Shown: positions 3,995 to 19,875 of the stretch, in pieces | How the letters are laid out: every line of letters begins with the position of its first letter | Position numbering within the stretch: the first letter of the stretch is position 1 | Source: Hyphomonas sp. CY54-11-8 | GTDB lineage: Bacteria; Pseudomonadota; Alphaproteobacteria; Caulobacterales; Hyphomonadaceae | Assembly (NCBI RefSeq): GCF_000682735.1 | Contig: NZ_AWFD01000038.1 | Location: 1 to 64,000, forward strand | Direction of reading: 5' to 3' | Length of the DNA: 64,000 nt | Made by a program: the position numbers and the translations under genes | Notes under the pieces: generated by a model | Databases searched by the model: none | Told to the model about the DNA's origin: nothing | What the model saw: the letters and a program-made list of their open reading frames with translations, nothing else

Positions 3995-4666
3995 TCAGCT
4001 GCCCGCTGGATCGTAGGCCGGAAACTCGAACGGGTTGCGGGGCGCCAGCCCTTTGGACCCTTTCGGATTATTGTAGTTGCCCGTCAGGATCTCGAAATGG
4101 AGGTGGATGGCTGTCGCATTGCCAGACCTGCCCATCATGCCAAGCTCCTGCCCGAAACCCACTTCCGCGCCGGTGCGGATCCCCTGAGCAAAGTGCGCAA
4201 GGTGAGCGTAGCGCGTGTATACGCCGCCGCCATGATCAATCAGGACCATATTGCCATAGCCGGTCGAAACGCGTGCTTCGAGAATGCGCCCCGGCGCGGC
4301 GGCATAGATCGGCCCGGCCGGAATGGATTGCAGGTCGATCCCGTCATGGCGCCGGGCGGAGCGAATGCCGAAGCCTGACGAGAGGCACACATCGTTGGCT
4401 GGCGCCGTCGCCAGAACGACCGAGCCGACGACGATGATCGGCTTGTAATCGACCACCCAGAAATCGCGATCCATGGGCGGTGCATTGGTAACGTAGATGC
4501 CCCCACAGGAGCGGAGATAGGCGTTCGGCTGGAAGCTGCCTTGTGCTGCAGTAACCTGCGGCGGGCCCGGTGGCGGCGTGTAGGTCCGCACCTGTGTCGG
4601 GGCCGGCGAAGAGGCGCAACCAGCGAGGAAAACAAGCGTGAGTGCAGCCCCCAGCAGCTGCCTCAT
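3995..4666 (-). CDS. M23-family metallopeptidase lipoprotein (LytM/NlpD-like)
   Basis: A 223-residue envelope protein. It opens with a lipoprotein signal ending in LVFLAGC (lipobox), so it is probably anchored to a membrane and acts on peptidoglycan in the periplasm. The C-terminal half is a peptidase M23 domain: the metal-binding HDGID segment, the core GYGNMVLIDHGGG then YAHL, and the HLHFE motif, so the zinc ligands (His, Asp, His) look intact and it is likely an active endopeptidase. The start at 4666 is chosen because it yields the signal peptide and overlaps the monooxygenase stop in an ATGA quartet (4663-4666). Pairing with a flavin monooxygenase has no obvious metabolic logic. Confidence 0.88.
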   Translation of the reverse strand: MRQLLGAALTLVFLAGCASSPAPTQVRTYTPPPGPPQVTAAQGSFQPNAYLRSCGGIYVTNAPPMDRDFWVVDYKPIIVVGSVVLATAPANDVCLSSGFGIRSARRHDGIDLQSIPAGPIYAAAPGRILEARVSTGYGNMVLIDHGGGVYTRYAHLAHFAQGIRTGAEVGFGQELGMMGRSGNATAIHLHFEILTGNYNNPKGSKGLAPRNPFEFPAYDPAGS

Positions 4667-13036: not shown

Positions 13037-14146
13037 CTAGTCTGCGGGCGCGTCTTTCAGCTCTGCAGCGCGCGCCTGTTCGACCGCACGGTCTTCTTCG
13101 GTCAACGGAATCAGGCCCTTTTCGAGCAAGTAACCATCCGGCCCCATGGCGCCATCGGATATGAATTCCTGCACGAACTCGGCGATCCCCGGCACAACAC
13201 CCAGATTCTCGCGCTTCACATAGATGTAGAGCATGCGGGAGAGGCCGTACTCCCCGTCCTTGATATGCACGAAGTCCGGCGAAACACCGGACAGGAGCCC
13301 GGCTTTCACACGGTCTGAATTCTGCTCAAGGAAGGAAAAGCCAAGAATGCCGATGGCCGCCGGCGTCTTGGTCAGCGCCTGCACGACTGCGGCATCATTT
13401 TCGCCGAAGTCGATCCAGGCGCCATCGGTGCGGATCGTCCGGGCACGTTGCAGGAAGGCCGTCTCGTCCTGCTCGCGCAGTGCGGCCATCTGCGGATCCT
13501 CCAGCGCACCATGCTCCATGCCGAGCTCGACGAAAGCGTCGCGCGTACCGGAGGTCGGCGGCGGACCAAAGACGAGGATCGGCTCATCCGGGAGAGACGG
13601 GCTCACCTCGTTCCACGACTTGTACGGATTGGGCACGAAACCGCCTTCACCGTCCGGCAGCTCCATGGCGAGCGCGCGGTAGAGCTCGGCCTTGGTGATG
13701 TCGAAATCAGGCCCGGCCTTGGAATTGGCGATGACGATACCGTCGTAACCGACGCGGATTTCGGCGGGATTGTTGACGCCATTGGCAGCGCAAAGCGCCC
13801 GCTCCCCTTCCTTGATCGGGCGGGACGCGTCCGAGATCGAAGGCTGCGACGGCCCCGTGCCGAGACAAAAGGCCTTGAAGCCGCCGCCCGTCCCGGTCGT
13901 CTCCACCACCGGTGTCGGCCATTTGGTGACGGCGCCAAACTGTTCGGCAACCGCCGTGGCGAAGGGCGAGACGGTGGACGATCCGACAATCTTGATCTTT
14001 TCGGCATCCACGCCGGTGATGGATGGCGTGACGATCCGGTCGCCCACTTCCAGCTTTGACAGGTCCGTGCGTCCGCACGCCGCCGCCAACAACAAGGCCG
14101 CGGCTGCAAGGATTGGCGCAAGGCCTGAAGAGAGTGCGCGTGTCAT
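13037..14146 (-). CDS. pstS: phosphate ABC transporter substrate-binding protein, PstS-like lipoprotein
   Basis: A 369-residue periplasmic binding protein. The signal peptide ends LLLAAACG (lipobox). The mature chain begins the binding fold with KIKIVGSSTVSPFA, the phosphate-contacting GSSTV loop of PstS, and has the FGPPPTSGTRDAFVELG segment with the second set of ligand contacts (SGTRD). Expected role: high-affinity capture of phosphate for PstCAB. No pstC, pstA, pstB, phoU or phoB is next to it here, so this is a stand-alone copy; a PhoR-like kinase is 6 kb away. It is divergent to the ornithine decarboxylase gene. Confidence 0.9.
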   Translation of the reverse strand: MTRALSSGLAPILAAAALLLAAACGRTDLSKLEVGDRIVTPSITGVDAEKIKIVGSSTVSPFATAVAEQFGAVTKWPTPVVETTGTGGGFKAFCLGTGPSQPSISDASRPIKEGERALCAANGVNNPAEIRVGYDGIVIANSKAGPDFDITKAELYRALAMELPDGEGGFVPNPYKSWNEVSPSLPDEPILVFGPPPTSGTRDAFVELGMEHGALEDPQMAALREQDETAFLQRARTIRTDGAWIDFGENDAAVVQALTKTPAAIGILGFSFLEQNSDRVKAGLLSGVSPDFVHIKDGEYGLSRMLYIYVKRENLGVVPGIAEFVQEFISDGAMGPDGYLLEKGLIPLTEEDRAVEQARAAELKDAPAD

Positions 14147-14286
14147 GCCTGACTCTTTCCCAGTTGCGCCTGCCTCTATCCGGAATCCGGGCCGGCGCCA
14201 AACAAGGTAGGACTTCTTCAGTAACTGCTACAGGCCGGGATGAAGAAGGTTTCGTGAAAAATTTCAGTCCCGGCCCAAAAATTCAC

Positions 14287-14315
14287 TTGCACGCCCGGAT
14301 GTAGTCCATTACATG
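14287..14315 (+). promoter_or_regulatory. sigma70-like promoter of the ornithine decarboxylase transcript
   Basis: TTGCAC at 14287-14292 and TACATG at 14310-14315 are separated by exactly 17 bases. Transcription would begin near 14322. The in-frame ATG at 14313 lies inside the -10 box and therefore cannot be the decarboxylase start, which supports the start at 14424 and leaves about 100 nt of untranslated leader. Confidence 0.5.
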
Positions 14316-14321
14316 CCCCTT

Positions 14322-14423
14322 CGAAATAAAGAGATGTGGCGGACACTCTGCGCTAACCCACTCGGTGGGGGCCCCCGTACTAACGCCCAAAGCTGGTTAA
14401 AAGCCCTTTGGAGGTTAGGTGTC
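14322..14423 (+). ncRNA. probable speF-type leader RNA
   Basis: About 100 bases of structured-looking leader precede the ornithine decarboxylase start. It contains a GGGGGCCCCC palindrome (near 14367-14376), flanking CTAAC repeats (near 14353 and 14380), and ends with GGAGG at 14410-14414. Corbino and colleagues described a conserved 'speF' RNA motif in exactly this position, in front of ornithine decarboxylase genes of alphaproteobacteria; the position, size and taxon fit. I matched by context and rough shape, not by covariance scoring. Confidence 0.55.
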
Positions 14424-15617
14424 ATGCACTCCTATGCTACTCCCATTCATGTTGTTCGTGCGTCCCAGCCGGACCTGCCCGTATGGTGTTTCCGTCCGGA
14501 GCGCGTCACTGCGGCCGCTAAATGGTTCCATGACTCGTTCTCGGCCGAGCCGTTCTACGCCGTGAAGGCAAACCCGGCCGAGCATGTTCTGGACGCGCTC
14601 TGGGCCGGCGGCGTGCGCAGCTTCGACTGCGCCTCCGACACGGAAGTCGAACTGATCCGTACCCGGTTCCCGGAAGCCCGCATTGCGTTCCTGCACCCGG
14701 TGAAGAATCGCCGTGCCATCGCCCGTGCCTACAAGGAATTCGGCGTGCGCATCTTCGTCACCGACACGATGACGGAGCTGAACAAGATCCTCGAGGAAAC
14801 CGGCTACGCGACGGACCTGACGATCATCGTCCGTGTTGCTGTGTCTTGCGACGGCGCGGCCCTGCCGCTGGCCGGCAAGTTCGGCGCCGGTGCAGACGAC
14901 GCTGCAGAGATCCTGCGCGAAGCCCGCCGTTATGCAGACGAGCTGGGCGTGTCGTTCCACGTGGGCAGCCAGGCGATGCAGCCGACGGCATGGGCAACCG
15001 CCATGGCCGACGTCTCCCGCATCATCATCACCGCAGGTGTCACGGTCGACATCGTCGATGTCGGCGGCGGCTTCCCGTCGATCTATGCAGACAACGCCCC
15101 GCCTTCGCTGGACGCTTATGCCGCCATGGTCGAAGCCTCGTTCGAGAACATGTTCGTTCTCGAAAACGCTGAACTGTGGTGCGAGCCGGGCCGTGCGCTC
15201 TGCGCCGAGTCGGAAAGCCTGCTGTGCCGTATCGAATTGGCGAAAGATGGCGCGCTCTACATCAATGACGGCTCCTATGGCGCCCTCTACGATGCGGTGC
15301 ACGAGCGCTGGAACTTCCCGAAGCGCGCCATTGCTGGCGACGGCCGCAAGCTGCATGGCATGACGGCTTACACCGTGTACGGCCCGACCTGCGATTCGAC
15401 CGACAAGTTCCCGGAAGAGATCATGCTGCCGGCGGGCCTGGCCGAGGGCGACTATATCGAATTCGGCAATCTCGGCGCCTATGGCCGTGCCATGTCCAGC
15501 CGCTTCAACGGCTTCGGCGAAACCGAAGTGGTGGAAGTGCAGGACGCCCCGTGGCCGACGCTCTACGGGTCGATCGGCGCCGAAGTCGTGTCCATCGGGT
15601 CGATGGCAACGCGCTGA
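14424..15617 (+). CDS. ornithine decarboxylase (PLP, alanine-racemase fold; fold type III)
   Basis: A 397-residue PLP decarboxylase that makes putrescine from ornithine, possibly also acting on lysine. Features: PLP lysine in AVKANP (Lys48), the HVGSQ segment, the phosphate-binding GGGFP loop, CEPGRAL, and the catalytic Cys323 in the YGPTCDSTD motif that completes the active site across the dimer interface. Length fits the bacterial eukaryotic-type ODC family. Start at 14424 is supported by GGAGG nine bases upstream and by the promoter geometry. The gene is preceded by a probable regulatory leader RNA and its last 55 bases overlap the end of the oppositely transcribed murI gene. Confidence 0.92.
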   Translation: MHSYATPIHVVRASQPDLPVWCFRPERVTAAAKWFHDSFSAEPFYAVKANPAEHVLDALWAGGVRSFDCASDTEVELIRTRFPEARIAFLHPVKNRRAIARAYKEFGVRIFVTDTMTELNKILEETGYATDLTIIVRVAVSCDGAALPLAGKFGAGADDAAEILREARRYADELGVSFHVGSQAMQPTAWATAMADVSRIIITAGVTVDIVDVGGGFPSIYADNAPPSLDAYAAMVEASFENMFVLENAELWCEPGRALCAESESLLCRIELAKDGALYINDGSYGALYDAVHERWNFPKRAIAGDGRKLHGMTAYTVYGPTCDSTDKFPEEIMLPAGLAEGDYIEFGNLGAYGRAMSSRFNGFGETEVVEVQDAPWPTLYGSIGAEVVSIGSMATR

Positions 15618-16432
15618 AGTTCCGGAAAACCGTATCGCCTGAGGACGAGCGCGAGATCCGCCTCGTCTTCGGGCGAACTCGTCAGGAAGGCGTGGCCGCC
15701 GATGCCACGCGCCTTCGTATCTGCCGGCAGCACACGGATTGTCTGGCGGGCGATGGCTGCGCCTGAGTCGACATAGCTGACAGGCTGGGGCGCGCTGGCG
15801 ATCAGCTGGCCGCGCACAAGCGGGAAATGGGTGCAGGCGAGCACGATCGTATCGATCTTCTCCCCGCCCGGCACCTCGAACAAAGGCGCCTGCACTTCGG
15901 CAAACCGGTCGATGTGAATGTCCTCGCCGCGCGCATGCGCTTCGGCCAGGCGGACAAGTTCGATACTGCCATGCATGATGACATGCAGGTGGCCGGCGAA
16001 CGTCTCGATCAGTTCGGATGTGTAAGCCCGGCGGATCGTGCCCGGCGTTGCCAGCAGGCCGACCGTGCCGGTGCGGGTGAGCTGGGCAGCCGGCTTGATT
16101 GCCGGCACGGTGCCGACAACCGGGATGTCGAGCACCGCGCGCACGTCCTGCAGCGCGAGCGTCGAGGCGGTATTGCAGGCGATGACGAACACGTCCGGCT
16201 TCACCCGGTCGCACAGCGCCTTGGCCACTTTCGGCAGGCGCTCTCGCAGGGCTTCGTCTGACTTGTCGCCATAGGGAAAGAAACCGGAATCGGCAGCATA
16301 GTGCACGCCAAGCGCCGGGCCGAGCGCGCGGATCTCCTCCGCAACCGTCAGGCCCCCGACCCCGGAATCGAAGACGAGCACCCGCCCGCGGGCGGGAGAC
16401 GGAACGAAATTGCCGGGCAGTGTCTCAGGCAT
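15563..16432 (-). CDS. murI: glutamate racemase
   Basis: A 289-residue cofactor-independent racemase supplying D-glutamate for peptidoglycan. The N-terminal FDSGVGGLTV motif binds substrate, and the two catalytic cysteines are in IACNTAST (about residue 90) and VLACTHFPL (about residue 205). Both halves of the pseudo-symmetric active site are intact. Its 3' end overlaps the ornithine decarboxylase gene by 55 bases on the other strand; the C-terminal tail encoded there (after the last recognised core) is short. It is divergent to the copper operon. Confidence 0.94.
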   Translation of the reverse strand: MPETLPGNFVPSPARGRVLVFDSGVGGLTVAEEIRALGPALGVHYAADSGFFPYGDKSDEALRERLPKVAKALCDRVKPDVFVIACNTASTLALQDVRAVLDIPVVGTVPAIKPAAQLTRTGTVGLLATPGTIRRAYTSELIETFAGHLHVIMHGSIELVRLAEAHARGEDIHIDRFAEVQAPLFEVPGGEKIDTIVLACTHFPLVRGQLIASAPQPVSYVDSGAAIARQTIRVLPADTKARGIGGHAFLTSSPEDEADLALVLRRYGFPELQRVAIDPMDTTSAPIDP

Positions 16433-17025: not shown

Positions 17026-17101
17026 GACCGGCCCGGTGGGCCGCGCCTTTGCGCGCCCGCCGCCAATGCCGTTTCCCCCTCAATTCAGAAGGATCATTCC
17101 C

Positions 17102-19066
17102 ATGTTCAATCGACGTCATTTCCTGCAGGGCAGCGCCCTGATGGGGCTTTCGTCCATGCTGCCCGCCGCCTTGTTGCCGGCCTGGGCCCGCAGCGCCAGT
17201 GACGGCAATACCGGCCTCCCCAGGGAGACCGCCACGGAGTTCAATCTTTCCGTCGGGCGCTTCCCCGTGCGGATCGACGGACGTGCCGGCGAAGCCGTCG
17301 GCGTCAACGGCACGCTGCCCGCGCCGCTGATCCGTTTCCGCGAAGGCGACGAAATCACGCTCAATGTGACCAACACGCTGGACGTGGACACCAGCATTCA
17401 CTGGCATGGCCTTCTCGTGCCGTTCCAGATGGACGGCGTGCCGGGCGTCACCTTCCCCGGTATCCGGCCGGGCGAGACGTTCACGTACAAATATGCCGTG
17501 CCGCAATCGGGCACCTATTGGTACCATTCCCATTCCGGCCTGCAGGAGCAGGAAGGGCACTACGGGCCGATCATCATCGATCCGCATCATCACGACCCGG
17601 TCGCCTATGACCGGGAATATGTGCTGGTCCTCTCCGACTGGAGCTTCGAGAGCCCGTACCGGATCTTCGCAAAGCTGAAGAAGATGAGCGATGCCTACAA
17701 TTACCAGCAGCGCACCGTGGGCGACTTCCTGAAGGACGCGCAGGCGCGCGGCCTCGGCGCCGCCTGGAACGAGCGCGCCATGTGGGGCCAGATGCGGATG
17801 TCGCCGCGAGATATCGCCGATGTGACCGGCGCGACCTATCACTATCTGATCAACGGCCATTCGACCGCCGACAACTGGAACGGCGTGTTCAAAAAGGGCG
17901 AGCGCGTGCGCTTGCGCATCATCAATGCCTCGGCGATGACGATCTTTAATGTGCGCCTGCCGGGCCTGCCGATGACCATTGTCGCCGCCGACGGCCTGAA
18001 CGTGCAGCCGCTGGAGGTCGACGAGTTCCAGATGGGCGTCGCCGAAACCTATGATGTCATCATCGAGCCGAAGGACGAGCATGCCTATGCCTTTGTCGCG
18101 GAGAGCATCGACCGGTCCGGACAGGCGGTCGCGACCTTCGGTCCGCAACCCGGCATGCGCGCCGAGGCCCCTGCCCTGCGGGCCGTGCCGACGCTGACCA
18201 TGAAGGACATGGGCATGGATCATGGCAGCATGGACATGAGCGAGATGGACCATTCGGAAATGGACCACGCCACAATGGGCCATGACATGAGCGGAATGGA
18301 AATGTCCGGTCATGAAGGCCACGACATGAGTGGCCATGAGATGGGCGATATGGCCATGGATCATTCCGCACACGGCATGGCTGAGGATGCCGGCTGGCCG
18401 GTGGAGAAGAAAACCATCAAACGCGGCCCCGGTGTCGCAAATGTCGCCATGATGCCGATGAGCCGTCTCGACGAGCCGGGCATCGGCCTTGAAGACGTGG
18501 GCCACCGCGTAATGCGTTATTCCCAGCTGCGCAGCCTGACCCGCAATCCGGACCTGCGCCCGCCGGGCCGCGAGATGGAGATCCACCTCACCTCCAACAT
18601 GGAACGCTACATGTGGAGTTTCGACGGGGTGAAGTTCTCCGAAGTGACGGAGCCCATCATCTTCCATGAAGGCGAGCGCCTGCGGGTGACGCTGATCAAC
18701 AATACGATGATGCCGCACCCGATCCATCTGCACGGCATGTTCTTCGAACTCGTCAATGGCGGCGGCGACCATAAGCCCCGCAAGCACACGGTGATCGTGA
18801 AACCGGGCGAGAAGCTCTCCTTCGATGTCTCGGCAGACCATGTCGGCGACTGGGCGTTCCACTGCCACCTGCTTTACCACATGCATGCCGGCATGATGCA
18901 GGTCGTTTCCGTCCTGCCGTCCACGGACAAGACGCCGATGGATCATGAGCACATGGACCATGAAATGATGGGCCATGACATGCCCATGGAGCACGAAATG
19001 CCGATGGATCATGACATGATGGATCATTCTGCCATGGGCCATGACAAGCACGGGGAGATGAAGTGA
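17102..19066 (+). CDS. copA: copper-resistance multicopper oxidase CopA (PcoA)
   Basis: A 654-residue periplasmic multicopper oxidase. It begins with a twin-arginine signal (NRRHFLQGSALMG). Copper-ligand motifs of all four sites are visible: HWHG and WYHSHSG in the first cupredoxin domain, and HPIHLHG and HCHLLYHMHAGMM in the last. Two low-complexity Met/Asp/His tracts are inserted, at about residues 365-425 (repeats of MDH and GHDM type) and at the extreme C-terminus; these bind Cu(I). Expected role: oxidation of Cu(I) to Cu(II) in the periplasm. Start at 17102 gives the Tat signal. copB follows with overlapping stop/start (TGATG). Length is at the upper end of PcoA/CopA proteins because of the His/Met inserts. 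Confidence 0.94.
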   Translation: MFNRRHFLQGSALMGLSSMLPAALLPAWARSASDGNTGLPRETATEFNLSVGRFPVRIDGRAGEAVGVNGTLPAPLIRFREGDEITLNVTNTLDVDTSIHWHGLLVPFQMDGVPGVTFPGIRPGETFTYKYAVPQSGTYWYHSHSGLQEQEGHYGPIIIDPHHHDPVAYDREYVLVLSDWSFESPYRIFAKLKKMSDAYNYQQRTVGDFLKDAQARGLGAAWNERAMWGQMRMSPRDIADVTGATYHYLINGHSTADNWNGVFKKGERVRLRIINASAMTIFNVRLPGLPMTIVAADGLNVQPLEVDEFQMGVAETYDVIIEPKDEHAYAFVAESIDRSGQAVATFGPQPGMRAEAPALRAVPTLTMKDMGMDHGSMDMSEMDHSEMDHATMGHDMSGMEMSGHEGHDMSGHEMGDMAMDHSAHGMAEDAGWPVEKKTIKRGPGVANVAMMPMSRLDEPGIGLEDVGHRVMRYSQLRSLTRNPDLRPPGREMEIHLTSNMERYMWSFDGVKFSEVTEPIIFHEGERLRVTLINNTMMPHPIHLHGMFFELVNGGGDHKPRKHTVIVKPGEKLSFDVSADHVGDWAFHCHLLYHMHAGMMQVVSVLPSTDKTPMDHEHMDHEMMGHDMPMEHEMPMDHDMMDHSAMGHDKHGEMK

Positions 19067-19875
19067 TGCAGAGGACGCTCCTTTCCGCATTCGCCGCGCT
19101 CGCCTTTGCTGCCGGCGCTTCGGCCCAGACGCATGACCATCACAGCACCTCTCCGGAGGAAAAGCCCTGGTCGCAGGCCGACGCTTATTTCGACCCGGCC
19201 GAAATGGACGCGGCCCGCGCGCATGTGCAGGCCCATTCCGGCGGCTCGCCATTTGCCATGGTCCGGTTTGACCGGCTGGAAGCTCAGTCGTCTGACGGGG
19301 AAACCACCGGTGTCTGGGATGCCGACGCCTGGTATGGCGGCGACATCAACAAGATCTGGCTGAAAACCGAGGGAGAGTATTCCTTCGAGGAAAACGACCT
19401 GGAAGAAGCCGAAGTCCAGCTGCTCTGGTCCCGCGCGATATCGCGCTACTTCGACCTTCAGACCGGTGTACGCTACGATTTCGAACCAAAGGGACAGGCC
19501 CATGCCGTACTGGGCGTCCAGGGGCTCGCCCCCTACTGGTTCGAAGTGGACGGCGCCGCCTTCCTGAGCGAGTCAGGCGACCTGACCGCCAGCTTCGAAG
19601 CCGAATACGAACTCCTGCTGACCAATCGGCTGATCCTCCAGCCCCGGCTGGAGGTGAATTTCTCGGCACAGGACATTCCGGAACGGGAGCTTGGCTCAGG
19701 CCTGACCGATCTGCAGGCCGGTTTGCGCCTGCGTTACGAAATCCGCCGGGAATTCGCCCCCTATATCGGCGTCGAATACCAGAGCGCCTTCGGCGGAACA
19801 GCAGACCGGATCGAGGCCAGCGGCGGGGACGCCGACGACACACGCTTCGTCATCGGCGTCCGAACCTGGTACTGA
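19066..19875 (+). CDS. copB: copper resistance protein B, outer-membrane beta-barrel
   Basis: A 269-residue protein with a cleavable signal peptide (AALAFAAGASA), a short His-rich start (THDHHS), then alternating beta-strand sequence ending in an aromatic residue (RTWY), typical of an outer-membrane barrel of the CopB/PcoB family. It is expected to work with CopA in keeping copper out of the cytoplasm. The A-type start at 19066 overlaps the copA stop (TGATG) and has GGGGAG upstream; a GTG at 19063 would only add one residue. The usual copC/copD or regulators are absent next to it. Confidence 0.9.
   Translation: MQRTLLSAFAALAFAAGASAQTHDHHSTSPEEKPWSQADAYFDPAEMDAARAHVQAHSGGSPFAMVRFDRLEAQSSDGETTGVWDADAWYGGDINKIWLKTEGEYSFEENDLEEAEVQLLWSRAISRYFDLQTGVRYDFEPKGQAHAVLGVQGLAPYWFEVDGAAFLSESGDLTASFEAEYELLLTNRLILQPRLEVNFSAQDIPERELGSGLTDLQAGLRLRYEIRREFAPYIGVEYQSAFGGTADRIEASGGDADDTRFVIGVRTWY

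Follow-up and report, generated by a model that had tools for sequence, protein, structure and literature searches.

A Strongly Conserved Leader, Probably an odc1-Like RNA, Upstream of an Ornithine Decarboxylase Gene in Hyphomonas

Results

The window analyzed here, a stretch of 64,000 nucleotides from a contig of Hyphomonas sp. CY54-11-8, contains a gene of the ornithine decarboxylase family (Table 1). The start of this gene, placed at the ATG at 14424 by the initial annotation, is borne out by a match to the Pfam domain Orn_Arg_deC_N (136.7 bits) and by matches to PDB sequences, the best of which are lysine/ornithine and ornithine decarboxylases; the protein is of the ornithine/DAP/arginine decarboxylase type. 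A comparison with NCBIfam gave seven matches, none of them above the cut-off. Decarboxylases from the same genus are 72 to 95% identical to the window protein. An N-terminal extension beginning at an ATG at 14313 was rejected: GGCGGAC and CUAACGCC lie 41, 42, 44 or 45 nt apart in Hyphomonas, a variation that breaks the frame.

The gene stands alone between two genes on the minus strand, at 13037-14146 and 15563-16432. Named by eye, the first (divergent) neighbor encodes a PstS-like phosphate-binding lipoprotein and the second (convergent) a MurI-like glutamate racemase. Farther along, 17036-19875 holds what we take to be a copper-resistance pair. Its first member (17036-19066) is presumably a multicopper-oxidase-like protein rich in Met/His/Asp repeats, and its second (19063-19875) an outer-membrane protein resembling CopB.

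Promoter geometry had been taken to put the transcript start near 14322. A simple consensus scan of 14150-14500 found no sigma-70-like site; a start near 14320 is nevertheless plausible, because a weak pair of promoter-like boxes can be recognized by eye (Table 1) and the leaders of many relatives are preceded by CTTTACA...TAT-like boxes (also by eye).

Table 1. Coordinates of the decarboxylase gene and of the features of its leader in the window
Feature	Position	Strand	Basis
Weak promoter-like boxes TTGCAC (14287-14292) / TTACAT (14309-14314)	14287..14314	+	By eye
Conserved leader RNA core	14338..14423	+	72 of 86 columns invariant in 37 Hyphomonas genomes; match to model R1
5' conserved strand GGCGGACA; GGCG at 14338-14341 is the left arm of a putative pseudoknot	14338..14345	+	8 of 8 columns invariant in 37 genomes
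Left arm of helix closing on start region (GACA, bulged C, UCU)	14342..14349	+	Fold
Variable hairpin CCCAC-UCG-GUGGG	14357..14369	+	Pair probability about 0.9
3' conserved strand CUAACGCC; CGCC at 14384-14387 is the right arm of a putative pseudoknot	14380..14387	+	Invariant in 7 distinct Hyphomonas cores
Predicted RBS-burying hairpin CUAAC/GUUAG + CCAAAG/CUUUGG	14380..14418	+	Pair probabilities 0.93-1.00
Shine-Dalgarno GGAGG, within the predicted RBS-burying hairpin	14410..14414	+	Sequence
Upstream candidate start codon GUG, separated from main ATG by two bases	14419..14421	+	odc1-like double start
Ornithine-decarboxylase-family gene	14424..15617	+	397 aa; Pfam and PDB matches

Judged from its sequence, the 86 nt before the ATG are a genuine and very strongly conserved cis-regulatory leader of ornithine decarboxylase. 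Pairwise identity across 37 Hyphomonas genomes (a subset of the same-genus matches) is 0.912 in the leader (14338-14423), compared with 0.619 in the promoter region (14281-14321) and 0.603 at third codon positions. These leaders were located by the exact GGAGG-to-ATG string, which is present in all 37, and they comprise seven distinct core sequences. A leader of about 100 nt before the ATG, as originally suggested, is thus confirmed by conservation far above that of its surroundings.

The core consists of two strands, GGCGGAC...CUAACGCC, and the CUAAC of the second has the ribosome-binding site (RBS) as an alternative pairing partner. Among 59 leaders from other genera of the order, 41 have both strands; the 18 that lack the core are eleven leaders of genera g235 and g236, three of family f4 (L066, L083, and L084), and four of family f5 (L068 and L080-L082). 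From start to start, the strands lie 41-45 nt apart in Hyphomonas and 26 to 175 nt apart in other genera, a spacing expected for RNA arms that meet rather than for a DNA operator, which counts in favor of a leader RNA.

Twenty leaders chosen by the two core blocks, the window's among them, served to train a covariance model (R1); on the window this model matches G000:C38:14332-14432 (65.3 bits, E 6.4e-12). Within the order, 119 of 249 genomes were matched at E<=0.1, each once (11 of the 119 are training members by hand count), and the decarboxylase gene itself was found at E<=1e-60 in 220 of the 249. A search of the class sample at E<=0.01 matched five of 385 genomes, all five belonging to the window's order, and none of the 380 outside it; in both searches weak members were missed because stricter search filters were used. 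All 110 matches with gene coordinates lie at the decarboxylase start, their ends falling anywhere from 8 nt within the decarboxylase match to 25 nt upstream of it. A looser pattern occurs in the window's genome once at the decarboxylase and at two other places; a reversed control pattern gave 10 matches. The view that a cis-regulatory leader RNA precedes this polyamine gene is well supported by the conservation and by the exclusive association with the decarboxylase.

The assignment of this leader to the speF RNA family did not survive scoring with the corresponding covariance model (Rfam RF00518; 153 positions, gathering score 37 bits). The model has no match in the window at the gathering cut-off and none at E<=10 in 13900-14700, where no other Rfam family was found at E<=10 either. 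Elsewhere in the window's genome it gives two noise-level places (E 2.2 and 2.6), and at that loose threshold 13 of 14 control genomes also have matches, none over the cut-off. Since the model does work elsewhere (nine of 289 class genomes score above the cut-off), the speF reading is refuted as far as sequence/structure modeling goes. The decarboxylases downstream of the best 11 speF loci are 31-36% identical to the window's over the matched part, and the conserved blocks of the window's leader are not apparent by eye in speF sequences. Scans of relatives' leaders against Rfam (12 and 20 loci, E<=5) yielded nothing close to a cut-off: of the four and two matches, the one with the lowest E was alpha_tmRNA at L077 (E 0.028; 19.8 bits, cut-off 50).

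Leaders of several other forms occur in the order. Most of those in family f3 are nested, with GGAC...GUCC-RCUAAC occurring twice. Conserved CCCCCUCGGCCCAGGCCAC and CGGCGUAAGC-like blocks were seen in the nested f3 leaders L074, L176-L184, and L198-L201 (except L181), and in L176-L180, L182, and L184 the right arm of the outer stem recurs as a GCCGG immediately upstream of the AUG. Genera g237, g238, g241, and g243 have a long form, with 112-170 nt between core-strand starts. Their leaders (L090-L107) share long invariant stretches, UUCCACGUGGCGUCUG ... GGAUGACGUGUGCGGGUUGAG, with variable hairpins between them; the insert resembles an independent structured domain, and the members scanned have no Rfam match. 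Family f4 has by eye a minimal hairpin, CCGGC-GGAGGNRACGAU-GCCGG. In many f4 leaders (L162-L175; e.g., L164:385-450) GGAGGNRACGAUG opens a short frame, MPDWVN..QGV(S/T), that often ends in a UGA immediately upstream of the UUG with which the decarboxylase starts. Judged by eye, its V and N codons show few substitutions, all of them synonymous, and the frame is a possible extra leader peptide. These forms look like one leader with interchangeable interiors, the homology of the interiors being putative.

The GUG that precedes the main start by two bases has counterparts in most of these groups. A start codon stands at the equivalent place in 55 of 64 translated leaders (chance about 4%), a count that could be favored by the choice of main starts from homology and Shine-Dalgarno sequences and in which related leaders are not independent. 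By group, the double start was seen in Hyphomonas (11/11), g242 (1/3), g239 (1/1), g241 (1/1), g243 (4/4), g238 (1/1), g237 (3/3), g240 (4/5), f2 (9/9), genus g261 of f3 (1/1), other f3 (0/6, nested type), f4 (9/9), f5 (8/8), and f17 (2/2). Among the 11 Hyphomonas leaders the frame opened by the GUG is 12, 29, or 48 codons long, and its end is not conserved. Another possible start, an AUG at 14334, is missing in L013, L014, L015, and L017. A general leader peptide read from CUA ACG CC.. ("LTPxWV") was rejected because 30 of 41 leaders, including 16 of the 18 long-insert leaders L090-L107, have no in-frame start codon between the last stop and the CUA.

The strong hairpin potential attributed to the leader by the initial annotation is not reflected in its folding energy: neither the 119-nt segment (z -0.13, equaled by 81 of 200 shuffles) nor 14334-14426 (z +0.34, 126 of 200) folds better than its shuffles. 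Nine of 12 leaders folded have z between -0.90 and +2.09; the other three, L087 (z -3.52), L089 (z -4.67), and L186 of f5 (z -3.30), are clearly more stable than shuffles and have the RBS buried. The RBS-burying hairpin predicted in the window also appears in the best folds of Hyphomonas leaders L014, L025, and L029. The helix that closes on the start region (GACAC/GUGUC) has a pair probability of about 0.95 in the 119-nt fold; a contiguous 7-bp version in two other Hyphomonas types gave a shuffle p of 0.003 and 0/400, compared with 0.195 in the window itself. The hairpin at 14357..14369 varies in sequence and length among Hyphomonas types.

In the nested fold the pairs of the putative GGCG/CGCC pseudoknot have a probability of 0.00, and a fold constrained to contain them is about 9 kcal/mol less favorable. 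These pairs are incompatible with the pairs formed by C14384 and C14387 in the RBS hairpin; because the two pairings are mutually exclusive, a two-state switch may be proposed. GGCG and CGCC are complementary but invariant in alignment A2, whose members were chosen by exact GGCGGAC and CTAACGCC, so they provide no covariation, and none is visible in the Hyphomonas leaders because their variation is too small. A hand-made structure placed on A2 has an invariant P1 helix and three pairs changed on both sides, against a shuffle mean of 4.6; sliding it by -1 and +1 gave covariation of 0.242 and 0.174 versus 0.141 unslid, yet fewer paired cells, and RNAalifold returned four invariant pairs only. 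The signal is weak in the f3 alignment (A3; 4 of 33 pairs changed on both sides) and in the long-insert set (A4; 1 of 47).

Pairing of the 5' strand with the RBS was rejected as a general rule, since it reached p<0.05 in only 11 of 52 leaders (six of them from f5) and, in a second test, in five of 32 (three of the odc1 type). It is clear in f5, where the 5'-arm/RBS duplex has z of -3.6 to -5.1 in all six leaders tested. Two Hyphomonas types and some f3 leaders are suggestive, g242 is borderline (L087 and L088, p 0.053), and f2, f4, and g243-type leaders are not significant in the 52- and 32-leader tests.

The f5 leaders resemble odc1 (uORF-25-1), a set of 272 alphaproteobacterial leaders that takes its name from ornithine decarboxylase. 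According to the available part of its description, odc1 carries two UUG start codons with a two-nucleotide gap, and an 11-codon frame begins at the upstream one; its RBS sits in a hairpin's right arm, and its 5' end forms a pseudoknot with the loop. A representative from Sphingomonas echinoides was tested with reporters in E. coli, and that part reports no signal or ligand (PMC8632094). Two leaders of family f17, which presumably come from Sphingomonads, fit this description, each with UUG-AA-UUG and an 11-codon frame. Those of f5 (genera g5, g252, and g258; part of a sister family in the same order) follow the odc1 plan with AUG-2 nt-AUG and a 13-codon frame (8/8). In an alignment of nine f5 and the two f17 leaders (A7), 94.4% of cells are paired over the pseudoknot and RBS helix, against 28.9-43.4% in slid controls, and six pairs are changed on both sides. 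Pseudoknot covariation was found only in the f5 and Sphingomonad-like leaders.

A second model (R2), our own stand-in for the published odc1 alignment, was built from A7. It matched 16 f5 genomes (nine of them training genomes) among the 249 of the order, together with one weak f2 place (G580, E 0.003) far from the decarboxylase gene of that genome; in the class (181 genomes) it matched only its two f17 training genomes. It had no match to the window's leader or to R1-type leaders (43 sources, of which L190, L192, L203, and L204 are of the odc1 type), and its one weak match in the window lies at position 4515 (E 0.24). Conversely, R1 had no match to the f5 and f17 leaders (23 sources), while the seven f4 loci were matched in the same search. 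The window's leader is most likely an uncatalogued relative or look-alike of odc1, odc1-like in architecture and undetected by an odc1-type model.

Discussion

The window's leader is probably a cis-acting leader RNA on the odc1 plan that controls translation of the decarboxylase, a judgment that leaves aside any particular signal. The leader is conserved, is associated with a single gene, and has a double start, and the fold covaries in the odc1-type leaders of the sister family; for the Hyphomonas leader, we infer a share in that fold as well as the direction of control and the nature of the signal. By default, the 5' strand beside GGCG and the CUAAC strand would fold onto the RBS and the GUG-UC-AUG double start, and translation would stay low. 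Formation of the GGCG/CGCC pseudoknot in the alternative state would compete for CUAACGCC, loosening the RBS hairpin and freeing the start. The balance might be shifted by something tied to polyamine supply, for which a metabolite, a protein, and ribosomes that begin translation at the first of the two start codons are candidates.

An unlikely alternative, though one with several observations behind it, is a metabolite-binding riboswitch of a class of its own, with GGCGGAC/CUAACGCC as the ligand pocket and an odc1-like start region that arose by convergence or shared gene-start ancestry. The same core blocks flank interiors of very different length in the 41 core-bearing leaders from other genera, the long-insert forms of g237, g238, g241, and g243 and those of f3 have dozens of invariant bases, and models of the odc1 type and the window type do not detect each other. 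Against this, the ligand is putative and a single gene is involved; moreover, odc1 has no ligand in the available part of its description (PMC8632094), and in the available part of the speF report none of six metabolites tested was bound by that RNA (PMC1273637). We entertain as a tentative possibility that the GGCGGAC...CUAACGCC leader represents an undescribed riboswitch class of this order that senses a molecule of the polyamine pathway. Such a class would have short forms (26-59 nt between strand starts), nested double forms, and forms with their own domain (112-170 nt), all acting on one gene through competing pairings in which the same strands engage the RBS.

It is quite improbable that a nascent leader peptide does the sensing, as in orf34/speFL, and that the RNA merely couples it to the main start. 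Such a peptide would account for the double start; the f5 frame of 13 codons encodes MxW....RLRW(S/F) in all eight translated leaders, both Sphingomonad-like leaders have the 11 codons given for odc1 in the text available (PMC8632094), and in many f4 leaders GGAGG-AUG opens a short frame ending at the main start (by eye). The Hyphomonas GUG frame argues against it through its variable length and unconserved end, as does the absence of AUG 14334 from L013-L015 and L017. A DNA operator for a transcription factor, which strong conservation near a promoter might suggest, is very improbable, given half-sites that lie 26 to 175 nt apart across genera and between the promoter-like boxes and the start codon, and conservation that extends through the RBS. 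Membership in the speF family is scarcely credible: speF RNA is alphaproteobacterial (PMC1273637, available part) and shares the kind of downstream gene and the position in the mRNA, but its model finds nothing at E<=10 here while working in other genomes, its sequences lack the conserved blocks by eye, and its decarboxylases are distant from the window's.

Polyamine sensing at alphaproteobacterial ornithine decarboxylases is the wider question to which an odc1-plan leader in Hyphomonas speaks: speF RNA bound none of the six metabolites (PMC1273637), and the signal of odc1 is unnamed (PMC8632094), as far as the available parts of these two reports go. With its two short core strands, a third, uncatalogued leader on this gene provides targets for mutagenesis in a tractable host, and comparing leader types could reveal what is essential to all of them. 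The window's order probably includes Caulobacter.

In the open-licence literature searched, which does not prove absence from print, a comparable element is described only in PMC8632094, to the extent of the text available; the available parts of PMC1273637, PMC3766115, PMC11109978, and PMC6386406 describe none, and a term search of PMC11109978 did not find ornithine, Caulobacter, polyamine, odc, or Hyphomonas. The orf34/speFL leader of enterobacterial speF, as set out in the available part of PMC6386406, contains orf34, a short upstream frame in which two arginine codons stand side by side. Like the window's leader it precedes an ornithine decarboxylase gene and combines an inhibitory structure on the RBS (predicted in the window) with an upstream frame; it differs in needing orf34, whereas the window's leader has no comparable conserved frame. 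The speF RNA (RF00518) likewise leads an alphaproteobacterial ornithine decarboxylase (COG0019) (PMC1273637, available part), but the window's leader is unmatched by its 153-position model, and the enzyme that it precedes is 31-36% identical.

The closest parallel is odc1, again as described in the available part of PMC8632094. The differences are that the window has GUG-UC-AUG (first GUG, main AUG) where odc1 has UUG/UUG, that the upstream frame has a constant 11 codons in odc1 but 12, 29, or 48 among the 11 leaders from Hyphomonas, and that the odc1-type leaders examined here carry CCAUGGGAC...CCGCAAG blocks that the window's leader lacks. In common, both are alphaproteobacterial leaders directly upstream of ornithine decarboxylase, and both have two start codons separated by two nucleotides. 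The odc1 hairpin whose right arm holds the RBS has a predicted equivalent in the window (pair probabilities of 0.93-1.00 within a whole fold no better than shuffles), and the 5'-terminal pseudoknot of odc1 with the loop has a putative one.
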